The notes under the pieces were generated by a model. The model saw only the letters and a program-made list of their open reading frames with translations, had not been told where the DNA came from and searched no databases. From Saccharothrix sp. (GTDB lineage Bacteria > Actinomycetota > Actinomycetes > Mycobacteriales > Pseudonocardiaceae), in NCBI RefSeq assembly GCF_031180885.1, contig NZ_JAPSLK010000011.1, positions 62,001-126,000 on the forward strand: a DNA stretch of 64,000 nucleotides, read 5' to 3'. How positions within the stretch are numbered: position 1 is the first letter of the stretch; every line of letters starts with the position of its first letter. Positions 17,612 through 27,241 of the stretch are shown one piece after another. The translations under genes were made by a program, and so were the position numbers.

Positions 17612-19315
17612 ATGACGCGAACTCCTGCTTCCGTGCTCGCCGGTCCGACCCGGGCGGTGCCCGCCGTCGGCTGGTGGGAGTTGTTCGAATGCCGGGCCCA
17701 GGCACGGCCCCGCGACGTGGCGCTGGTGGCAGACGGCGTCGGGTGGACCTTCCGCGACCTCGACCGGTGGGCCGACCGCGTCGCCCGCCGCCTGCGCGAC
17801 GCCGGGGCGCGGCCCGGCGCGGTGGTCGCGTGCGCGGTGCCGAGGTCGGCGGGGGCGGTGGTGGCGCTGCTCGCCGTGGCGAAGACCGGTGCCGCCGCCC
17901 TGCCGCTGGACCCGGCGCTGCCTGCGCGGCGGCGGGAGGCGATCCTGGCCGACGCCGACCCGGTGGTCGTGCTGACCGACCTCGACACCGACCTCGACAC
18001 CGGCCTCCAGACCGGACTTGACCTCGGCACCGGCACCGGCCTCGATCTCGGCACCGTTCTCGACGCCGGCCGTGACGGTCGGCCGTTGGGGCGGCAGGAA
18101 GAGAGGCCTGCCTACGTCATCTACACGTCCGGCTCCACCGGCACCCCCAAAGGCGTGGTCGTCGGCAACGCGAGCCTGGTCAACCTCCACGGCGAGCTGA
18201 AGGCCCGGCACTTCCCGCCGCACCGCCGGGTCAAGGTCGCCCACGGGCTGCCGTTCGGCTTCGACGCGGCGTTCGACCCGCTGTTGTGGATGGTCGGCGG
18301 GCACGAGGTGCACCTGGTCCCCGACGACGTGCGCACCGACCCCGACCGGTACGTCCGCTTCGTCGCCGACCACCGGATCGACGTGGTGGAGACCGTGCCC
18401 GCGCACGTGGTGGCGCTGGTCGACGCCGGGTTGCTCCACCACCCGCCCGAACTGCTGTTCCTCGGCGGTGAGGCCATCGGCCAGGAGTTGTGGACGCGGC
18501 TGCGCGACACCCCGGGGCTGCGCGCGGTGAACCTCTACGGGCCGACCGAGTGCACGGTGTTCGCCACGTCGTGCCGCCTCGACGAGTGCGAGGCGCCCGC
18601 GATCGGGCGGCCCGTCGCCAACACCGTGGTCGAGGTCGTGGACGACCGGTCGCGGCCGGTGCCCGTCGGGCAGCCCGGCGAACTGGTGATCGGCGGGCGG
18701 TGCGTCGCCTTGGGCTACCTCCACGGCGAGCGGTTCGACGGCTGGTTCCACACCGGCGACATCGGCCGGCTGCGGCCGGACGGGCGACTGGAGTGGTTGG
18801 GGCGCAAGGACGGCCAGGTCAAGATCCGCGGCCACCGGGTGGAGCCCGGCGAGGCCGAGCACGCCCTGCTCGCGCTGCCGACCGTGCGCCAGGCGGTGGT
18901 GCGCGCCGAGGGCGAGGGCCTGGACGTGCGGCTCGTCGCCTACGTCGTGCCCGCGCCCGGCGCCGACCTCTCCGACGTCCGGGACCGGCTGCGCGAGGTG
19001 CTGCCGGACTACCTCGTGCCCTCGGTCGTCGCGCTGGACCGGATGCCCGTCGGCCCGACCGGCAAGGTCGACCGGCGCGGGATGTCCTCGGCGCAGCGGT
19101 TGGTCGCGGACCTGTTCCGGGCGGTGCTCGGCGACGTCCGCGGGGTGACGCCGACCAGCGACTTCCTCGACCTCGGCGGGCACAGCCTGGCCGCCGCCGC
19201 CCTCGCGGCCCGGCTGCGCGTGGTGGGCGTGCCGTGTTCGACGCGGGACGTGCTGACCCTGCGCACCGTGGCCCGGCTCGCCGGGCTGGTGACCGCGCAC
19301 CCGGGGAAGGAGTGA
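17612..19315 (+). CDS. Stand-alone NRPS adenylation-carrier (A-T) didomain protein
   Basis: The 567-residue protein activates an amino or aryl acid and loads it onto its own carrier domain. Adenylation motifs are A3 YTSGSTGTPKGVV near residue 170, A5 NLYGPTE near 308, A7 HTGDIGRLRPDGRLEW near 380 and A10 PTGKVDR; the carrier site is DLGGHSLAA with Ser near residue 524. There is no condensation or thioesterase domain. ATG 17612 follows GGGAG. Between motifs A2 and A3 a repetitive Asp/Leu/Thr/Gly insert (about residues 127-150) marks recent repeat growth. Substrate code was not resolved; the neighbouring halogenase points to a tyrosine-like substrate presented on the carrier. Confidence 0.85.
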   Translation: MTRTPASVLAGPTRAVPAVGWWELFECRAQARPRDVALVADGVGWTFRDLDRWADRVARRLRDAGARPGAVVACAVPRSAGAVVALLAVAKTGAAALPLDPALPARRREAILADADPVVVLTDLDTDLDTGLQTGLDLGTGTGLDLGTVLDAGRDGRPLGRQEERPAYVIYTSGSTGTPKGVVVGNASLVNLHGELKARHFPPHRRVKVAHGLPFGFDAAFDPLLWMVGGHEVHLVPDDVRTDPDRYVRFVADHRIDVVETVPAHVVALVDAGLLHHPPELLFLGGEAIGQELWTRLRDTPGLRAVNLYGPTECTVFATSCRLDECEAPAIGRPVANTVVEVVDDRSRPVPVGQPGELVIGGRCVALGYLHGERFDGWFHTGDIGRLRPDGRLEWLGRKDGQVKIRGHRVEPGEAEHALLALPTVRQAVVRAEGEGLDVRLVAYVVPAPGADLSDVRDRLREVLPDYLVPSVVALDRMPVGPTGKVDRRGMSSAQRLVADLFRAVLGDVRGVTPTSDFLDLGGHSLAAAALAARLRVVGVPCSTRDVLTLRTVARLAGLVTAHPGKE

Positions 19316-19320
19316 GTGGC

Positions 19321-20772
19321 GTGGACTACGACGTGATCGTGGTCGGCGGCGGGCCGGGCGGGGCGACGGCGGCGACGCTGACCACCATGGACGGTCACCG
19401 CGTTCTCTTGCTGGACAAGGAGTTCTTCCCGCGCTACCAGATCGGCGAGTCGCTGCTGCCCTCGACCGTGCACGGCATCTGCCCGATGCTCGGGCTGCGC
19501 GGGGAGATCGAGCGCGCCGGGTTCGTGCGCAAGCGCGGCGGGACGTTCCGGTGGGGCGCCAACCCCGAGCCGTGGACCTTCGCGTTCGCCGCGTCCGACC
19601 GCATGGCCGGGCCGTGCTCGTACGCCTACCAGGTCGAGCGGACCCGGTTCGACGAGTTGCTGCTGGACAACGCCCGGCGGCACGGCGTGGACGTGCGGCA
19701 GGGGCACCGGGCGGTCGGGGTGGTCCGGGACGGGGGTCGGATCGCGGGCGTGCGGTACGTGGACGACGCCGGTGCGGAACGGGTCGCCACGGCCCGGTTC
19801 GTGGTCGACGCCTCGGGGCACACCAGCAGGCTGCACCACGACGTCGGCGGCCGGCGCGAGTACTCGCCGGTGTTCCGGAACCTGGCGCTGTTCGGGTACT
19901 TCGAGGGCGGGCACCGGATGCCCGCGCCGAACTCCGGCAACATCCTGTGCGTCGCGTTCCCCTCGGGCTGGTTCTGGTACATCCCGCTGTCGGATTCGCT
20001 GACCAGCGTCGGCGCGGTGGTCCGGCGGGAGTCCGCCGCGAAGGTGCAGGGCGATCCGGAGGCCGCGTACGCGGCGCTGATCGCCGAGTGCCCGATGATC
20101 GCGGGGTTCCTGCGCGGCGCGCGGCGGGCGACCCGGTCGCCGTACGACAAGCTGCGGGTGCGCAAGGACTACTCCTACGACCGCACCCGGTTGTGGGCGC
20201 CGGGCATGGCGCTGGTCGGGGACGCGGCGTGCTTCATCGACCCCGTGTTCTCCTCCGGGGTGCACCTGGCCACCTACAGCGCGCTGCTCGCCGCGCGGTC
20301 GATCAACAGCGTGTTCGCCGGCATGGACGAGGACCGGTGCTTCGGCGAGTTCGAGGCCCGCTACCGGCGGGAGTTCGGGTTGTTCCGGGACTTCCTGATC
20401 GCGTTCTACGGGCTGCACGTCGACGAGGGCTCCTACTTCTGGCAGGCCCGGCGGATCAGCGCGCAGCGCGGCGGGCGGCTGGAGGCGTTCGTGAACCTCG
20501 TGGGCGGGGTGAGCGGCGCGGACTTCGCGCGCCTGGACCCGGGGGTGGCGGGGTCGGGGGTGGCGGGCTCGGAGGAGCGGGACTCGGAGGAGCGGGACTC
20601 GGGGGTGCTGGGCTCGGGGGTGCTGGGCGAGTTGATCGCCGAAGGGGTGAACCTCCAGTTGCGGGGGCTGTTGGGCGGTGGTGCCGAGCCGCCGATGTTC
20701 CCCGGTGGCCTGTCGGCGTCCGTCGACGGTCGGCGCTGGGTGGTGCCGGCGGCGGCCGGTGCGATCCCGTGA
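19321..20772 (+). CDS. FAD-dependent phenol-type halogenase
   Basis: This 483-residue flavin halogenase closely resembles those of glycopeptide antibiotic pathways, which chlorinate beta-hydroxytyrosine bound to a carrier protein. The FAD motif VVGGGPGGATAA is at the N-terminus, a conserved lysine is in FVRKRGGTFRWG near residue 72, the halogenase signature GWFWYIPL is near residue 217 (W-x-W-x-I-P), and GDAACFIDPVFSSGVHLA is a second flavin-site motif. GTG 19321 follows AAGGAG. The C-terminus has tandem micro-repeats (GVAGSGVAGS, EERDSEERDS, GVLGSGVLG). A carrier-bound substrate from the preceding A-T protein is the natural inference; chloride or bromide cannot be distinguished. Confidence 0.88.
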   Translation: MDYDVIVVGGGPGGATAATLTTMDGHRVLLLDKEFFPRYQIGESLLPSTVHGICPMLGLRGEIERAGFVRKRGGTFRWGANPEPWTFAFAASDRMAGPCSYAYQVERTRFDELLLDNARRHGVDVRQGHRAVGVVRDGGRIAGVRYVDDAGAERVATARFVVDASGHTSRLHHDVGGRREYSPVFRNLALFGYFEGGHRMPAPNSGNILCVAFPSGWFWYIPLSDSLTSVGAVVRRESAAKVQGDPEAAYAALIAECPMIAGFLRGARRATRSPYDKLRVRKDYSYDRTRLWAPGMALVGDAACFIDPVFSSGVHLATYSALLAARSINSVFAGMDEDRCFGEFEARYRREFGLFRDFLIAFYGLHVDEGSYFWQARRISAQRGGRLEAFVNLVGGVSGADFARLDPGVAGSGVAGSEERDSEERDSGVLGSGVLGELIAEGVNLQLRGLLGGGAEPPMFPGGLSASVDGRRWVVPAAAGAIP

Positions 20773-21905
20773 TCGCGACCGCGCTGGGCGCGATCGCCGT
20801 GCTGCTCGGGCTGCTCGGGCTGGCCCGGGTGTTCGGGGCGGCGGCGGTCCGGCTCGGGCAGCCGGCGGTGGTGGGGGAGATCGCGTGCGGCGTGCTGCTC
20901 GGGGTGGTGCTCGCGGCGGGGGACGTCGAGGTGCCGGCGCGGGTGGGGACCACGGTGGACGCCGTCGCGCAGCTCGGGCTGGTGCTGTTCCTGTTCTGCG
21001 TGGGCGCGCGGCTGGCGCCGGGGGTCGGCGCACCGGGGCGGGAGGTGGTCGCCGTGCTGCCGCTCGCCGCGGGCGCCACCGTCGTGCCGTTCGCGCTGGG
21101 CGCGGCGCTGGCGGTGTGGCCGGCCGCGCGGCACGCCCCGGCGGGCACGGGCGTGTTCGTGCTGTTCGTCGGCGCGGCCGTGGCGGTGACCGCGCTCCCC
21201 GTGCTGGCCCGCGTCCTCGCCGAGCGCGACCTGCTCGACCGGCCCGAGGGGCGGCGGGCGCTGGTCGCGGCGGCGATGGCCGACGCCGCCGCGTGGCTGG
21301 CGCTCGCCGTGGTCGTCGGCGGGTCGGGGGGCGCGTCGTGGGTGCTCGTGGCCGCGTTCGCCGCGGTGCTGCCGGCGCTGTCCCGGTTGCCGCGGCGCAC
21401 GCCGGTGGCGGTGTTGGCCGTGATCGCGTGCGGGGCGGCGGCGGTCACCGAGGCGGCCGGGCCGCACGCCGCCATCGGCGCGTTCCTGGCCGGGTTCGCG
21501 GTCGGGCGCGGCGGCGCCGAGGCACTGGCCCCGGTCGCCGGGCTGCTCGTGCCGCTGTACTTCGTCCGGGTCGGCCACCGGGTCGACTTCGCGCTGCTGG
21601 ACCCGTTGCTGGTGCTGGAGACCGCGGCCGTCATCGTCGTCGCGGTGGTGGGCAAGCTCGGCGGCGGCTACCTCGGCGCGCGGCTCGCCGGGCACCCGCG
21701 CCACGACGCCGCCGTGTTCGGCGTGCTGATGAACACGCGCGGCGTCACCGAGATCGTCTTCGTCACCATCGGGCTGGAGCTCGGCGTCATCGACGGCGCC
21801 TTCCACACCGCCCTGGTCGCCATGGCGCTGGTCACCACGGCCATGACCGGACCGCTGCTCAACCGCCTGCGCGTCACCACACCGGAAAGGGGTGTCCACC
21901 CATGA
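20769..21905 (+). CDS. CPA2-type cation/proton antiporter
   Basis: The 378-residue membrane protein has about eleven to twelve hydrophobic helices and the monovalent cation:proton antiporter-2 pattern (GQPAVVGEIACGVLLG near the start, FLFCVGARL, AVTALPVLARVLAE and VLMNTRGVTEIVF near the end). GTG 20769 overlaps the halogenase stop. Antiporters of this kind sit in several glycopeptide clusters, where export or pH/ion balance roles have been suggested but remain unclear. Here it is the only transporter in the operon and may export the product or a counter-ion. Confidence 0.8.
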   Translation: MIATALGAIAVLLGLLGLARVFGAAAVRLGQPAVVGEIACGVLLGVVLAAGDVEVPARVGTTVDAVAQLGLVLFLFCVGARLAPGVGAPGREVVAVLPLAAGATVVPFALGAALAVWPAARHAPAGTGVFVLFVGAAVAVTALPVLARVLAERDLLDRPEGRRALVAAAMADAAAWLALAVVVGGSGGASWVLVAAFAAVLPALSRLPRRTPVAVLAVIACGAAAVTEAAGPHAAIGAFLAGFAVGRGGAEALAPVAGLLVPLYFVRVGHRVDFALLDPLLVLETAAVIVVAVVGKLGGGYLGARLAGHPRHDAAVFGVLMNTRGVTEIVFVTIGLELGVIDGAFHTALVAMALVTTAMTGPLLNRLRVTTPERGVHP

Positions 21906-23305
21906 CGACCTACGAGCCCGAGCCGTGGCGGATCAAGATGGTCGAGCCGATCCGCGCCACCACCCGCGCGCACCGGGAGCGGGCGATCCGCGCGGCGGGC
22001 TGGAACCCCTGCCTGCTGCGCGCCGAGGACGTCCACATCGACCTGTTCACCGACTCCGGCACCAACGCCATGTCCGACCGCCAGTGGTCGGCGCTGATGC
22101 GCGGCGACGAGGCGTACGCCGGGGCGCGCAGCTTCTACGTGCTGGAGCAGGCGGTCCGGGAGCACTACGGCTACCCGCACGTCGTGCCCGTGCACCAGGG
22201 ACGCGGCGGCGAGGCGATCCTGTCCCGCTGCCTGCTCGGCCCCGGCACCCACGTGCCCGGCAACATGTACTTCCCGACCACCCGCGCGCACCAGGAGCTC
22301 AACGGCGCGACGTTCCACGACGTGATCGTGGACGAGGCCCACGACCCGGTCTCCGAGCACCCGTTCAAGGGCGACGTCGACCTCGACAAGCTCCGCGCGC
22401 TGGTCGAGGAGGTCGGCGCGGACGCGATCCCGTGCGTGTCGGTCGCCGCGACCGTGAACATGGCCGGCGGCCAGCCGATCAGCGTCGGCAACCTCACCGC
22501 GGTGTGCGAGCTGGCGCACGCGCACGGCATCCCGGTCTTCCTCGACGCCGCGCGGGCGGTGGAGAACGCGTGGTTCGTCAAGCAGCGCGAACCCGGCTGG
22601 GGCGACAAGTCGGTCGCCGAGATCCTGCACGCGCTGTGCGCGCCCACGGACGGCGCGGTCGTGTCGGCGAAGAAGGACGGGCTGGCCAACATCGGCGGCT
22701 GGGTCGGCCTGCGGGACGCGGACCTGGCCGACCGGGTGCGCGCCGAGGCGTTGCTGTACGAGGGTTTGCACACCTACGGCGGCATGGCGGGCCGTGACAT
22801 GGAGGCCATCGCGCAGGGCATCGCCGAGTCCGTGGACGAGGAGCACATCCGGTCCCGCGTGGCGCAGGTGGAGTACCTGGGTGCACGCCTGCGGAACGCC
22901 GGGGTGCCCGTGGTGCGCCCGTTCGGGGGCCACTGCGTGTGCGTGGACGCCGCCGCGACCCTGCCGCACATCCCGCGCGGGCAGTTCCCCGGCCAGACCC
23001 TGGCCGCCGCGCTGTACGTGGTCGGCGGCGTGCGGGGCGTCGAGCGGGGCGGCGTGTCCGCGGGCCGGGACCCGCGCACCGGCGACAACCGGACACCGGC
23101 CCTGGAACTCCTGCGCCTGGCCGTCCCCCGCCGCGTCTACACCCGCTGCCACATCGACCACGTGGCCGACAGCGTCATCAAGGTGCACCAGGAGCGCGAG
23201 GAGATCACCAGCGGCTTGGTGTTCAGCCACGAACCCCCCGTGCTCCGCTTCTTCCAGGCGCGGTTCGCCCCGGCCGGCGGGGAGTCCATCTTCGGGCGAT
23301 CGTGA
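21902..23305 (+). CDS. Tyrosine phenol-lyase-like PLP enzyme
   Basis: The 467-residue protein is a class I beta-eliminating lyase. PLP-binding lysine lies in SAKKDGLANIGG near residue 256, and TDSGTNAMSD and THQGRG-like PVHQGRGGEAIL are in place. Two positions separate tyrosine phenol-lyase from tryptophanase: the arginine in VRGVERGGVSAGR and the paired phenylalanines in LRFFQARF. Both match the phenol-lyase type. The enzyme reversibly splits tyrosine to phenol, pyruvate and ammonia. ATG 21902 overlaps the antiporter stop, so it is the fourth gene of the halogenase operon, hinting at a halogenated tyrosine or phenol metabolite. Substrate is inferred. Confidence 0.82.
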   Translation: MTTYEPEPWRIKMVEPIRATTRAHRERAIRAAGWNPCLLRAEDVHIDLFTDSGTNAMSDRQWSALMRGDEAYAGARSFYVLEQAVREHYGYPHVVPVHQGRGGEAILSRCLLGPGTHVPGNMYFPTTRAHQELNGATFHDVIVDEAHDPVSEHPFKGDVDLDKLRALVEEVGADAIPCVSVAATVNMAGGQPISVGNLTAVCELAHAHGIPVFLDAARAVENAWFVKQREPGWGDKSVAEILHALCAPTDGAVVSAKKDGLANIGGWVGLRDADLADRVRAEALLYEGLHTYGGMAGRDMEAIAQGIAESVDEEHIRSRVAQVEYLGARLRNAGVPVVRPFGGHCVCVDAAATLPHIPRGQFPGQTLAAALYVVGGVRGVERGGVSAGRDPRTGDNRTPALELLRLAVPRRVYTRCHIDHVADSVIKVHQEREEITSGLVFSHEPPVLRFFQARFAPAGGESIFGRS

Positions 23306-23319
23306 CGGGAGGACCGCGC

Positions 23320-23349
23320 GGTGTGGGCCACCGGGTGGTGGCCCACACC
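23320..23349. terminator. Strong hairpin terminator at the end of the halogenase operon
   Basis: GGTGTGGGCCACC (23320-23332) pairs perfectly with GGTGGCCCACACC (23337-23349) across a four-base loop. It lies between convergent gene ends at 23305 and 23357 and can serve both strands. Confidence 0.8.
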
Positions 23350-23356
23350 GGCCTGT

Positions 23357-23881
23357 TCACCAGAAGTGCGCGACGTCGACCACCAGCCGGTTGGGCAGCG
23401 TGAACGCGCGGAACGGCAGCCGTGCGCGTGTGCCGAGCCCGACCGTCGTCCGCCCCTCGAACGACCCGGCCCACGCGACCTGCCGGAACGTCTGGTACCC
23501 GGTCACGTTCACGAGTTCGTCGCGGTTGGTGAACGTGTAGGTCGGGTTGCCCCACTGGTCGTAGGCGGGTGAGATCGCGGTGATCCGCAGCTTCGCCCCG
23601 CCCCGGAGGGGCACGAGTCTCCCCGAGCCGTCCTCGTACACCTGGTCGACGTACTGCACGTGGTAGCCGTCGCTGTTGCCGCGGAAGTCGAACACCAGCC
23701 GGTCGTAGCAGTCGTGCCTGCCGGCGCGCAGACCGATCATCTCCCCGGTCACGGTGGACGTCGCCGATTTGGGCAGCGATCCCCACGTGATGCCGCAGTA
23801 CGGCGCCGCCGAGGCCGTCGCGGGCACGACCAGGGCCGCCGCGACCAAGGTCGCCACTACCAGGACTGCTTTGCGCAGCAT
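23357..23881 (-). CDS. Secreted AMIN-like domain protein
   Basis: The 174-residue protein has a signal peptide (MLRKAVLVVATLVAAALVVPATASA-AP) and one AMIN-like domain with the family's patterns GLRAGRHDCYDRLVFDFRG and PNRLVVDVAHF at the C-terminus. AMIN-like domains are thought to bind cell-wall or surface polymers; no catalytic residues are visible. Start ATG 23881 follows GGGAGACGAAG. A perfect 31-base inverted repeat lies just upstream in the leader. A relative with two such domains is encoded at 33592-34481. Confidence 0.8.
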   Translation of the reverse strand: MLRKAVLVVATLVAAALVVPATASAAPYCGITWGSLPKSATSTVTGEMIGLRAGRHDCYDRLVFDFRGNSDGYHVQYVDQVYEDGSGRLVPLRGGAKLRITAISPAYDQWGNPTYTFTNRDELVNVTGYQTFRQVAWAGSFEGRTTVGLGTRARLPFRAFTLPNRLVVDVAHFW

Positions 23882-24550: not shown

Positions 24551-27241
24551 ATGAGTGAGACCCGGTCCGCGGGCGGCCGGCGCGGTGGTGTGGTGCCGCG
24601 TGAGGGGAAGCGTCACGGTGGGCGGTGGACGGTGTTCGCCGTGGTGATGGGAGCGGTGGCGCTTGGGAGTCCGTATCTGTTGTTCATGCGGGACGACGAC
24701 CCGGACGCGGCGAAGGTGGACGCTTCCGCCTACTACCAATTGGTCTCCGAGCACAACGGCAACGCGCTCGACGTGGCCGGGGCGGACACCGCGGACGGGG
24801 TGAGGATCCAGCAGGAGAAGCTCACCAAAGGCGCGGCCAGCCAGCAGTGGCGGGTGAAGCCGGTGGAAGAGGGCTTCTACCAGTTGGTCAACCACAACAG
24901 TGGGAAGGTGTTGGGGGTACGCCCTGCCGCCTCGCCGGCCAACGTGGAGCAGCAGTCGGACACCGGTGCCATCACCCAGCAGTGGAAGATCACCGACGCC
25001 GGTGACGGGTCGGTGAAGATCGTGTCGCGGAGCAGCGGCATGGTGCTGTGCGTCAACGACGGGTCCGACGGCCAGGCTGTCGTCCAGACCGCCGACCGGG
25101 ACAGTGCCGACCAGCGCTGGAAGTTGGCCAAGGCCGAAGTCGTCGCCACGCGCTCAAAGCCGGCCGTGGCGCAGCCGAAGCCCACCACCACCTCCGCCAC
25201 GCCCGCCCCGACAGCACCGGTCAAGTCCGGCCCCTACACCTGGCGGAACGTCCAGATCGCGGGTGGCGGCTTCGTCACCGGGTTCGTCTTCAACCCCACC
25301 CGCCAGGGCCTGCTGTACGCGCGCACCGACATGGGCGGCGCGTACCGGTGGGACGGCGCCACCAACAAGTGGATCCCGCTGACCGACTGGGTCCCCGACT
25401 GGAACATGCTCGGCATCGAGAGCATCGCGACCGACCCGGTCGACCCCGACCGCCTCTACCTCGCCACCGGCACCTACACCAACGACTGGGCGGGCAACGG
25501 CGCGATCCTGCGCTCCACCGACCAGGGCCGCACCTTCCAGCGCACCGACCTGCCCTTCAAGCTCGGCGCCAACGAGGACGGCCGCTCCATGGGCGAGCGC
25601 CTCGCGATCGACCCCGCCAACCCCGCCACGCTGTACCTGGGCACCCGCAAGAACGGCCTGTGGCGCAGCACCGACCACGGCGTGACGTGGAACCAGGTGA
25701 CCGGTTTCCCGGTCAAGGACGGCGCCGGCAGCGGCGTCGGCCTGTCCTTCGTGACCTTCGGGCCCGCCGGCAGCAAGACGATCTACGTGGGTGTCGCCGA
25801 CAAGACCACCTCCCTCTACCGCTCCACCGACGGCGGCGGCACCTGGCAGGCCATCCCCGGCCAGCCCACGGGGCAGTTGCCGCACCACGGCGTCCTGTCC
25901 GGTGACGGTTCGCTGTACGTGACCTACACCGACGCCCCCGGCCCGAACGGGGTGAAGGCCGGTTCGGTGTGGAAGTACAGCGGGTCCTGGAAGGACATCT
26001 CGCCGATCCCCGGCAACGGCTTCGGCTTCGCCGGGCTGGCGGTGGACCCGCAGCGCCCGTCCACGGTGATGGTCACGACGCTCGACCGCTGGTGGCCCTC
26101 GGACGAGTTGTTCCGCTCCACCGACGGCGGCGCGACCTGGAACGCCCTCGGGGACAAGGCCGTCCGGGACGCCTCCGCGGCACCGTACGTCGGCACCGGC
26201 ATCGGGCACTGGATGGGCGCGCTGGCCATTGACCCCTTCGACTCCGGGCACGTCCTCTACGGCACCGGATCGGGGCTCTGGGCCAGCAACGACGTCACCG
26301 CGGCCGACAGCGGCGGCCCGACGCACTGGACGGTCCCGGTGAAGGGACTGGAGGAGACCGCGGTCCTCGGCCTGGTCGCGCCGCCCGGCGGCAAGCTGAT
26401 CAGCGCGCTCGGCGACGTCGGCGGGTTCCGCCACGAGGACCTGGACCGGGTGCCGGCCGCCGCGATCTCCGGACCGCGCTTCACCAACACCACCGGCATC
26501 GACTTCGCGCAGGCCAAGCCCAACGTCGTGGTGCGCGTCGGCTACAGCAACGAAGAACGCGGCGCCTACTCCACCGATGGCGGGGCCACCTGGGAACCGT
26601 TCGCCGGTGCTCCGGTGAGCGCCGCGGGTGGTGGCTCGGTCGCGATCTCGGCGGACGGCACCACCGTGGTGTGGACCGCGTCGGGCCAGGTCCCGTACGC
26701 CTCCACGGACCAGGGCAAGACGTGGAAGGCGTCCACGGGTCTGCCCACGGGCACGGCCGTCGTGGCCGACCGCGCCACGCCGGGCACGTTCTACGCGCTC
26801 AGCGACGGCAAGTTGTTCGCCAGCACGGACGGAGGCCGCAGCTTCACCGCGCGCGCGAGTGGGCTCGGCGGGGGACGCCTCAAGGCGGCTCCGGGCAACG
26901 CGGGCGACCTGTGGATCGCGGACGGCGGCAGCCTGTCGCACTCCACCGATGGCGGGGCGAGCTTCCGGAAGCTGGACGGCGTGCAGCGGGCCGAGTCGGT
27001 CGGCTTCGGCAAGGCCGCCCCGGGCACCCGGTACCACGCGCTCTACCTCATCGGCACGGTCAACGGCGTCACCGGGATCTTCCGCTCCATTGACGGCGGC
27101 GCGGCCTGGGTGCGGATCAACGACGACCGGAACCAGTTCGGCGGGAGCGCGGCCGGCGTGATCACGGGGGACCTCGAGGTCTACGGCCGGGTCTACCTGG
27201 GCACCAACGGTCGGGGCGTGCTGTACGGTGACCCGTCCTGA
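24551..27241 (+). CDS. Membrane-anchored or secreted GH74-type xyloglucanase with N-terminal ricin lectin
   Basis: The 896-residue protein starts at ATG 24551 after AGGAG. A basic N-terminus and a hydrophobic helix (about residues 28-50) form a signal anchor or uncleaved signal. Residues about 57-200 are a ricin-type beta-trefoil with NSGKVLGV and QQW repeats; a Thr/Pro linker follows, then two seven-bladed propellers of GH74 (about 225-896). The first catalytic aspartate is expected in YARTDMGGAYRWD, the second in ALGDVGGFRHED; several STDGGxTW blade motifs are visible. GH74 enzymes cleave xyloglucan. It is separate from, and about 50 percent longer at the front than, the GH74 at 51939. Confidence 0.85.
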   Translation: MSETRSAGGRRGGVVPREGKRHGGRWTVFAVVMGAVALGSPYLLFMRDDDPDAAKVDASAYYQLVSEHNGNALDVAGADTADGVRIQQEKLTKGAASQQWRVKPVEEGFYQLVNHNSGKVLGVRPAASPANVEQQSDTGAITQQWKITDAGDGSVKIVSRSSGMVLCVNDGSDGQAVVQTADRDSADQRWKLAKAEVVATRSKPAVAQPKPTTTSATPAPTAPVKSGPYTWRNVQIAGGGFVTGFVFNPTRQGLLYARTDMGGAYRWDGATNKWIPLTDWVPDWNMLGIESIATDPVDPDRLYLATGTYTNDWAGNGAILRSTDQGRTFQRTDLPFKLGANEDGRSMGERLAIDPANPATLYLGTRKNGLWRSTDHGVTWNQVTGFPVKDGAGSGVGLSFVTFGPAGSKTIYVGVADKTTSLYRSTDGGGTWQAIPGQPTGQLPHHGVLSGDGSLYVTYTDAPGPNGVKAGSVWKYSGSWKDISPIPGNGFGFAGLAVDPQRPSTVMVTTLDRWWPSDELFRSTDGGATWNALGDKAVRDASAAPYVGTGIGHWMGALAIDPFDSGHVLYGTGSGLWASNDVTAADSGGPTHWTVPVKGLEETAVLGLVAPPGGKLISALGDVGGFRHEDLDRVPAAAISGPRFTNTTGIDFAQAKPNVVVRVGYSNEERGAYSTDGGATWEPFAGAPVSAAGGGSVAISADGTTVVWTASGQVPYASTDQGKTWKASTGLPTGTAVVADRATPGTFYALSDGKLFASTDGGRSFTARASGLGGGRLKAAPGNAGDLWIADGGSLSHSTDGGASFRKLDGVQRAESVGFGKAAPGTRYHALYLIGTVNGVTGIFRSIDGGAAWVRINDDRNQFGGSAAGVITGDLEVYGRVYLGTNGRGVLYGDPS

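Follow-up and report, generated by a model that had tools for sequence, protein, structure and literature searches.

Why should an actinobacterium keep a glycopeptide-type halogenase in one operon with an enzyme that splits tyrosine? The question is raised by four genes in a 64,000-nucleotide stretch of Saccharothrix sp. (contig NZ_JAPSLK010000011.1, positions 62,001 to 126,000; the whole stretch is called the window below). Judging from sequence comparison, these genes probably form a self-contained route from tyrosine to a halogenated phenol, ending in a remodelled tyrosine phenol-lyase (TPL). The enzyme families are known, but for their combination and for the natural TPL subtype no description was found in PubMed Central (PMC) open-access text, going by titles and abstract openings among the matches listed, which agrees with the initial annotation's remark that it knew of no described pathway with this set.

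A four-gene set that travels together

The proposed operon stands up, in that all four genes are open, lie on the + strand and are supported by Pfam. The A-T protein joins an adenylation (A) to a carrier (T) domain, and TPL positions follow the Citrobacter freundii enzyme throughout.

17612-19315, + strand: A-T didomain gene, 567 amino acids; PF00501, PF13193 and PF00550 above cut-off; predicted to activate and carry tyrosine
19100-19291, + strand: carrier (T) domain inside the A-T protein (PF00550, residues 497-560)
19321-20772, + strand: FADH2-dependent halogenase gene, CndH/glycopeptide type, 483 amino acids; PF04820, 221 bits
20769-21905, + strand: CPA2-type monovalent cation/proton antiporter gene, 378 amino acids; PF00999, 112 bits
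21902-23305, + strand: TPL gene, remodelled subtype, 467 amino acids; PF01212
22010-22012, + strand: codon for Cys at TPL position 36
22274-22276, + strand: codon for Pro at TPL position 124
23039-23041, + strand: codon for Val at TPL position 379
23319-23350, + strand: 14-bp hairpin 3' of the TPL gene, between convergent genes

Comparison of gene neighbourhoods across genomes, which the initial annotation had called for, shows that the four genes do travel together. Among 390 genomes of the window's family, 24 have a TPL at E <= 1e-140 (25 loci), and for the 24 loci outside the window a region of about 20 kb was searched in each case for the four genes; all of them are present at 20 of the 25 loci and in 19 of the 24 genomes, window included. 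One Actinoallomurus locus (L026, from genome contigs) brings the total to 21 distinct four-gene loci in 20 genomes of several genera (two loci, L135 and L136, come from one genome), the carriers including Amycolatopsis vancoresmycina, A. orientalis, A. xylanica, Pseudonocardia spinosispora and Actinoallomurus iriomotensis. With the same genes at 20 further loci, a chance arrangement is excluded. Neighbourhood clustering covered 16 of the 21 loci, and flanking gene families are seldom common to them (L023 and L138, which have extended common flanks, are the exception, and a few others have two or three flanking genes in common), so that the four-gene set stands on its own. Its best-conserved member is the TPL, at 77-82% against 54-59% for the A-T protein (17 loci, L125-L141).

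The cassette is not widespread in the class: in an even sample of 394 class genomes, 10 have a TPL at the same threshold. None of 24 other genomes of the same genus has a TPL this close to that of the window, which suggests that the cassette arrived horizontally.

As for its layout, the genes had been described as packed with overlapping stops, which is true of two of the three junctions, halogenase/antiporter (GTGA at 20769) and antiporter/TPL (ATGA at 21902), each with a 4-bp overlap, but not of the first, where A-T and halogenase genes are separated by a 5-bp gap. The predicted terminal hairpin is there, the 61-base stretch that holds it (23300-23360) having a stability of -38.3 kcal/mol (z = -3.0; 2 of 200 shuffles equally stable). 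It is without a T run and is not among the sites reported by a consensus terminator scan. Between 17000 and 23500, a terminator scan gave one weak site, upstream of the operon, with shuffles giving more, and a promoter scan gave no promoter-like site.

Nine flanking open reading frames (ORFs) within 13.8-33.5 kb were compared with Pfam (lipase/DUF308, NucA/NucB nuclease, AMIN-like, lectin/BNR, sigma factor, SSF symporter, CstA and two unmatched), and among them none has an evident link to the operon and none is a nonribosomal peptide synthetase module or a crosslinking cytochrome P450. A decayed glycopeptide cluster, which the initial annotation had already doubted, is rejected on the grounds that these nine ORFs include no assembly genes and that the complete set turns up at other loci with neighbours that mostly differ. 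Downstream, 24632-27241 encodes an 869-amino-acid protein with a ricin-type lectin domain and BNR repeats, followed by the gene of a sigma-70-family factor.

The lyase pocket and its genomic company

The TPL has TPLs as its best solved relatives (1c7g/1tpl, 534 bits; best tryptophanase, 433 bits), scores 641.9 bits with TIGR02618, under the equivalog cut-off of 720.7, and keeps the pyridoxal phosphate lysine K257 as well as Y71, R381, R404 and F448 of the C. freundii enzyme. What has changed is the pocket (F36C, T124P and M379V), in which the ring/OH contacts Thr124 and Met379 are not kept. These changes are almost invariant in the cassette alignment, whose 25 rows include four duplicates (L021=L132, L022=L137, L023=L139, L144=L027) and thus 21 distinct loci: C36 is found in 24 of 25 rows (20 of 21 without duplicates), and P124, V379, Y71 and R381 in all 25. 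A tryptophanase was considered for the window enzyme and rejected, R381 and F448 being marks of a TPL. Eighteen tryptophanase-type paralogues at about 46% identity (L003-L020), mostly belonging to the window's genus, show D124; their residue 381 is L, C, V or M, and their residue 448 is H in 17 cases and P in one.

The significance of position 379 comes from protein engineering. In C. freundii TPL the substrate OH is reported to be bonded by Thr124 and Arg381, and the M379A variant to have a kcat/KM of 430 on 3-chloro-L-tyrosine (wild type, <4) and of 148 on tyrosine (wild type, 17,500, that is, a >100-fold loss), with Phe36 shifting to fill part of the space vacated by Met379 and product yields said to resemble those obtained with M379V (PMC9262865). 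M379V itself was chosen for 3-methoxytyrosine from a screen of positions 36, 288, 379 and 448 (PMC4583198). A small residue at 379 thus trades tyrosine for 3-chlorotyrosine, which suits a lyase acting after the halogenase. Halogenated phenols ionise more readily, so that a pocket which has lost Thr124 but retains Arg381 may be adapted to a phenolate. The cassette enzyme therefore has the family and the catalytic residues in common with the Citrobacter and Erwinia TPLs (1tpl, 1c7g), and the size change at 379 with the engineered M379V and M379A variants, but differs in being a natural P124/V379 enzyme, nearly always with C36, that is tied to a halogenase and predicted to be specific for halotyrosine. 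It also shares the Beta_elim_lyase fold and a biosynthetic setting with the TPL-like domains of polyketide synthases (leinamycin LnmJ type), for one of which, in Streptomyces sp. FJNU027, tyrosine-to-phenol chemistry is proposed (PMC12669078). Such assembly-line domains are described as being without Tyr71 and Arg381 (PMC3870968), whereas the cassette TPL has both and stands alone, and should therefore cleave a free amino acid; leinamycin-type action on a carrier-bound substrate is disfavoured for the same reason.

Pocket residues go hand in hand with neighbouring genes over a much larger set of loci. The comparison covers 109 distinct loci (the window, L024-L100, L125-L148 minus L144, and L207-L214; 71 of the 72 loci L029-L100 entered the residue alignment), leaving out L001-L020 (of which L002 is a second copy of the L032 TPL and flavoprotein), the short search loci, and two of the ten places found outside the window in the even sample. 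R381/F448 is found at 106 of them, the other three having I381/H448, the tryptophanase pattern. F36/T124/M379 occurs at 74 of these 106 TPL-type loci, none with the queried tailoring genes nearby; as the genome-contig search is represented by its best 80 matches, these ordinary TPLs are the nearest ones and not a random draw. P124/V379 occurs at 23 loci (22 CPV and one VPV, residues written in the order 36, 124, 379), all of them near a halogenase (21) or a flavoprotein of the flavin-dependent monooxygenase (FMO) type (2). At the nine remaining loci T124 is kept and residue 379 is A, V, T or I (five STA, two GTT, one CTV and L148, a T124/I379 TPL in two pieces with position 36 in the piece not read); at all nine, O-methyltransferase matches lie no more than 10 kb away. 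In a tree of 38 TPLs, which leaves the deep branching order unsettled, the P124/V379 enzymes fall in three places, so that the match between pocket and neighbours is more than the signature of one clade.

A probable route from tyrosine to a halogenated phenol

The A-T protein carries the carrier serine motif LGGHSL and has the A-domain pocket code DADEFGLVFK, in which a one-residue alignment gap leaves position 239 uncertain. Alignment of 16 A-T proteins gives a main-branch code of DAD/NELGLVFK, with I in the fifth place in one protein; window and main branch together thus have DAD/N-E-L/F/I-GLVFK. Two fused relatives (L027 and L146) have DASTIAAVCK, which we take to be the canonical tyrosine code.

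The halogenase has 3e1t as its best solved relative (516 bits; the next scores 241) and possesses the motifs GGGPGG (GxGxxG) and WFWYIP (WxWxIP), with the lysine before RGGTF kept as in 3e1t. It is about 60% identical (59.5% by tblastn, 61% in a further comparison) to an A. orientalis halogenase adjoining P450-motif and glycosyltransferase-like genes, a locus that we read as the vancomycin cluster. At 54-60% identity (tblastn), halogenases are also found next to large proteins that give A-T-like matches, at L156 and L157, or next to glycopeptide-type genes, at L166 (halogenase by tblastn, neighbours as read from ORFs); no TPL is present in the 20 kb read at each of these three loci, and the converse of the association fails, related halogenases occurring away from TPL. 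Yet another 59%-identical halogenase (tblastn) of A. orientalis (L165, C42) lies outside both cassette and glycopeptide-type locus, next to an A-T-containing gene and oxidase-like genes by reading of ORFs. The glycopeptide halogenase Tcp21 is reported to act on tyrosine bound to a carrier, none being seen with free amino acids as substrates (PMC5620994), and since the set has no beta-hydroxylase, the cassette halogenase would by analogy be expected to work on an aminoacyl carrier in the same way. It resembles the group of Tcp21, BhaA, VhaA and 3e1t in its identity to the A. orientalis enzyme from the glycopeptide-type locus and in its predicted carrier-bound tyrosine substrate, but it serves a stand-alone A-T protein beside a lyase, with no peptide assembly genes in the tested flanks.

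How the amino acid leaves the carrier is suggested by the other loci. That there is no thioesterase, as first annotated, is correct for the window and its contig but not for the cassette in general: a separate thioesterase gene lies upstream of A-T at 17 of the 21 loci, and at L027 and L146 the A-T protein runs on into a thioesterase and an MbtH-like domain (by Pfam for L027, by tblastn and visual reading for L146), so that the window and L125 alone are without one. The separate genes are confirmed with PF00975 at two loci and otherwise come from tblastn. With a thioesterase at 19 of 21 loci, hydrolytic release belongs to the usual pathway, and the window genome has PF00975 thioesterases on other contigs (23 matches).

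The antiporter scores 90 bits with TIGR00932, under the cut-off of 238, and is present at 21 of 21 halogenase loci, one of the two FMO-type loci, none of the 74 ordinary TPL loci and none of the nine O-methyltransferase-type ones; it therefore goes with the halogen and not with TPL. This distribution disfavours a role in supplying TPL, which requires a monovalent cation, with potassium. Chlorophenols are weak-acid protonophores, and the role that we prefer is restoring ion and pH balance against the phenol.

Taken together, the pathway would comprise the following steps, in which the substrate, the halide, the number of halogens, the direction, the release step and the role of the antiporter are those that we infer: (i) the A domain would load tyrosine onto its own T domain, (ii) the halogenase would chlorinate (or brominate) the carrier-bound ring ortho to the OH, (iii) a thioesterase, encoded elsewhere in the window genome, would free 3-halo- or 3,5-dihalotyrosine, (iv) the remodelled TPL would cleave this amino acid, yielding pyruvate, ammonia and a 2-halo- or 2,6-dihalophenol, and (v) the antiporter would restore ion and pH balance against the membrane-active phenol, protecting the cell. 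The initial idea that halogenase and tyrosine C-C lyase belong to one path to a halotyrosine or halophenol is thus supported by the observed gene content, synteny and pocket changes, and by the observed match between pocket and neighbours. Of its two halves, that tyrosine or a halotyrosine is made from, or broken to, a phenol, we regard breakdown as most likely, with a ring-substituted tyrosine rather than tyrosine itself as the substrate of the lyase.

Several points weigh against this route. The A-domain codes of the window and the main branch are not a textbook tyrosine code, and partly resemble glycine and ornithine codes. The cassette is without beta-hydroxylase, flavin reductase and exporter, and none of the 23 PF00975 matches of the genome is on the window contig (C115). 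The balhimycin halogenase BhaA is reported to be inactive on carrier-bound tyrosine, its substrate being beta-hydroxytyrosine (PMC5620994). The published kinetics are those of M379A, not of a V379/P124/C36 enzyme, and the loss of Thr124 could also lower activity. No halogenase was found at eight further TPL loci of the even class sample, with up to 20 kb read around each. Finally, the match between pocket and neighbours rests on few deep independent events, the fused-type halogenases (L027, L146) do not join the main cassette group in the halogenase tree, the neighbours of ordinary TPLs were searched only for tailoring genes drawn from the other groups, sequence extends 3 kb or more to either side at only 53 of the 74 ordinary loci, and the O-methyltransferase match of L148 is partial (34%) and about 8 kb away.

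Alternatively, halotyrosine might be the product, the TPL only recycling or detoxifying a surplus, or the halotyrosyl carrier might feed a synthetase elsewhere in the genome. There is no halophenol-using gene in the set, the halogenase has its kin in or beside peptide-assembly genes, and stand-alone A-T-halogenase sets that feed pathways are known. We nevertheless regard this as unlikely, in view of the thioesterase at nearly all loci, of the TPL being the best-conserved member and of the mostly different surroundings of the same genes at the 16 loci compared, which speak for no fixed partner synthetase.

The two other alternatives appear less probable still. A cargo other than tyrosine on the A-T protein (e.g. 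beta-hydroxytyrosine or a non-aromatic amino acid), with the TPL-like enzyme acting on another amino acid, would fit the non-canonical A-domain code, the TIGR02618 score under the cut-off and the need of BhaA-type halogenases for beta-hydroxytyrosine (PMC5620994). This is distinctly improbable, however, when the fused proteins with the presumed tyrosine code belong to the same halogenase-antiporter-TPL set, R381/F448 mark a TPL as against a tryptophanase, and no hydroxylase is in the set. Least probable of all is a TPL running synthetically, making (substituted) tyrosine from a phenol, pyruvate and ammonia for subsequent loading and halogenation: TPL is reversible and is used in synthesis, including that of 3-substituted tyrosines (PMC9262865), but activity on tyrosine suffers when residue 379 is small, as reported for M379A (PMC9262865), which fits use after and not before ring substitution, and the set offers no source of phenol. 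Conversion of tyrosine to a halogenated phenol therefore remains our preferred reading.

Related lyase loci with other tailoring genes

The loci without a halogenase suggest that halogenation may be one variant of a broader theme. TPLs with S36/T124/A379 (L024, 7568-11380; L025, 7352-11398; L207, 6591-11374; L143) occur with O-methyltransferases and a hydroxylase-like gene for which Pfam names no family and which we read as SfmD-like. One of these O-methyltransferases is of the catechol type (PF01596), and a second (PF00891) is found at three of the four loci; a further S36/A379 locus (L028) has one in the sequence covered. Such loci predict a path from tyrosine through DOPA (3,4-dihydroxyphenylalanine) and 3-methoxytyrosine to guaiacol and veratrole. 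TPLs with G36/T124/T379 (L208, L147) adjoin an A-T protein. At L208 (10007-17511) it takes the form of a P450-A-T fusion, with a hydrolase after it, two O-methyltransferases on the flanks and the T379 TPL alongside, and L147 has, besides A-T, matches to two O-methyltransferases and an ORF of comparable length; from their gene content, these two loci appear to be a third version of a carrier-then-lyase design in which the tailoring enzyme differs.

Directly upstream of the P124/V379 TPL at L032 (8456-11377) and L145 (8450-11377) lies an FMO-superfamily flavoprotein (split over two reading frames in L145), relatives of which occur in 18 of the 394 class genomes at E <= 1e-60, window genome included. 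AetF and Bmp5 are described as halogenases related to flavin-dependent monooxygenases, Bmp5 being named as a phenol halogenase (PMC10306068). The flavoprotein may possibly be a single-component halogenase; AetF does not appear by name in the 33 single-sequence matches or in the 60 profile matches listed (of 124), and the structure model (predicted local distance difference test, pLDDT, of 36) is too poor for use.

A reading that we hold to be slightly better than even is that all these loci belong to a modular pathway family of actinobacteria, in which the tyrosine ring is modified – by a halogenase, a P450 or a hydroxylase/methyltransferase, and on a carrier where A-T is present – before a dedicated TPL releases an ortho-substituted phenol, residues 36, 124 and 379 revealing the substituent. 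The window would represent the halogen branch, with the antiporter for self-protection, and nature and protein engineers would have reached the same M379V/A solution. A dedicated bacterial path to halophenols has its counterpart in the route to marine bromophenols, in which Bmp5, a single-component flavin halogenase, acts on a free aromatic acid; that route is without carrier and TPL, whereas the cassette has both.

If this is true, (i) chlorophenols, usually seen as pollutants, would have a dedicated biosynthesis from tyrosine in soil actinobacteria, including the vancomycin species A. orientalis, (ii) a sequence rule would predict which substituted tyrosine a TPL cleaves and (iii) the cassettes and their relatives would offer natural candidate catalysts for the production of 3-halo- and 3-methoxytyrosine.

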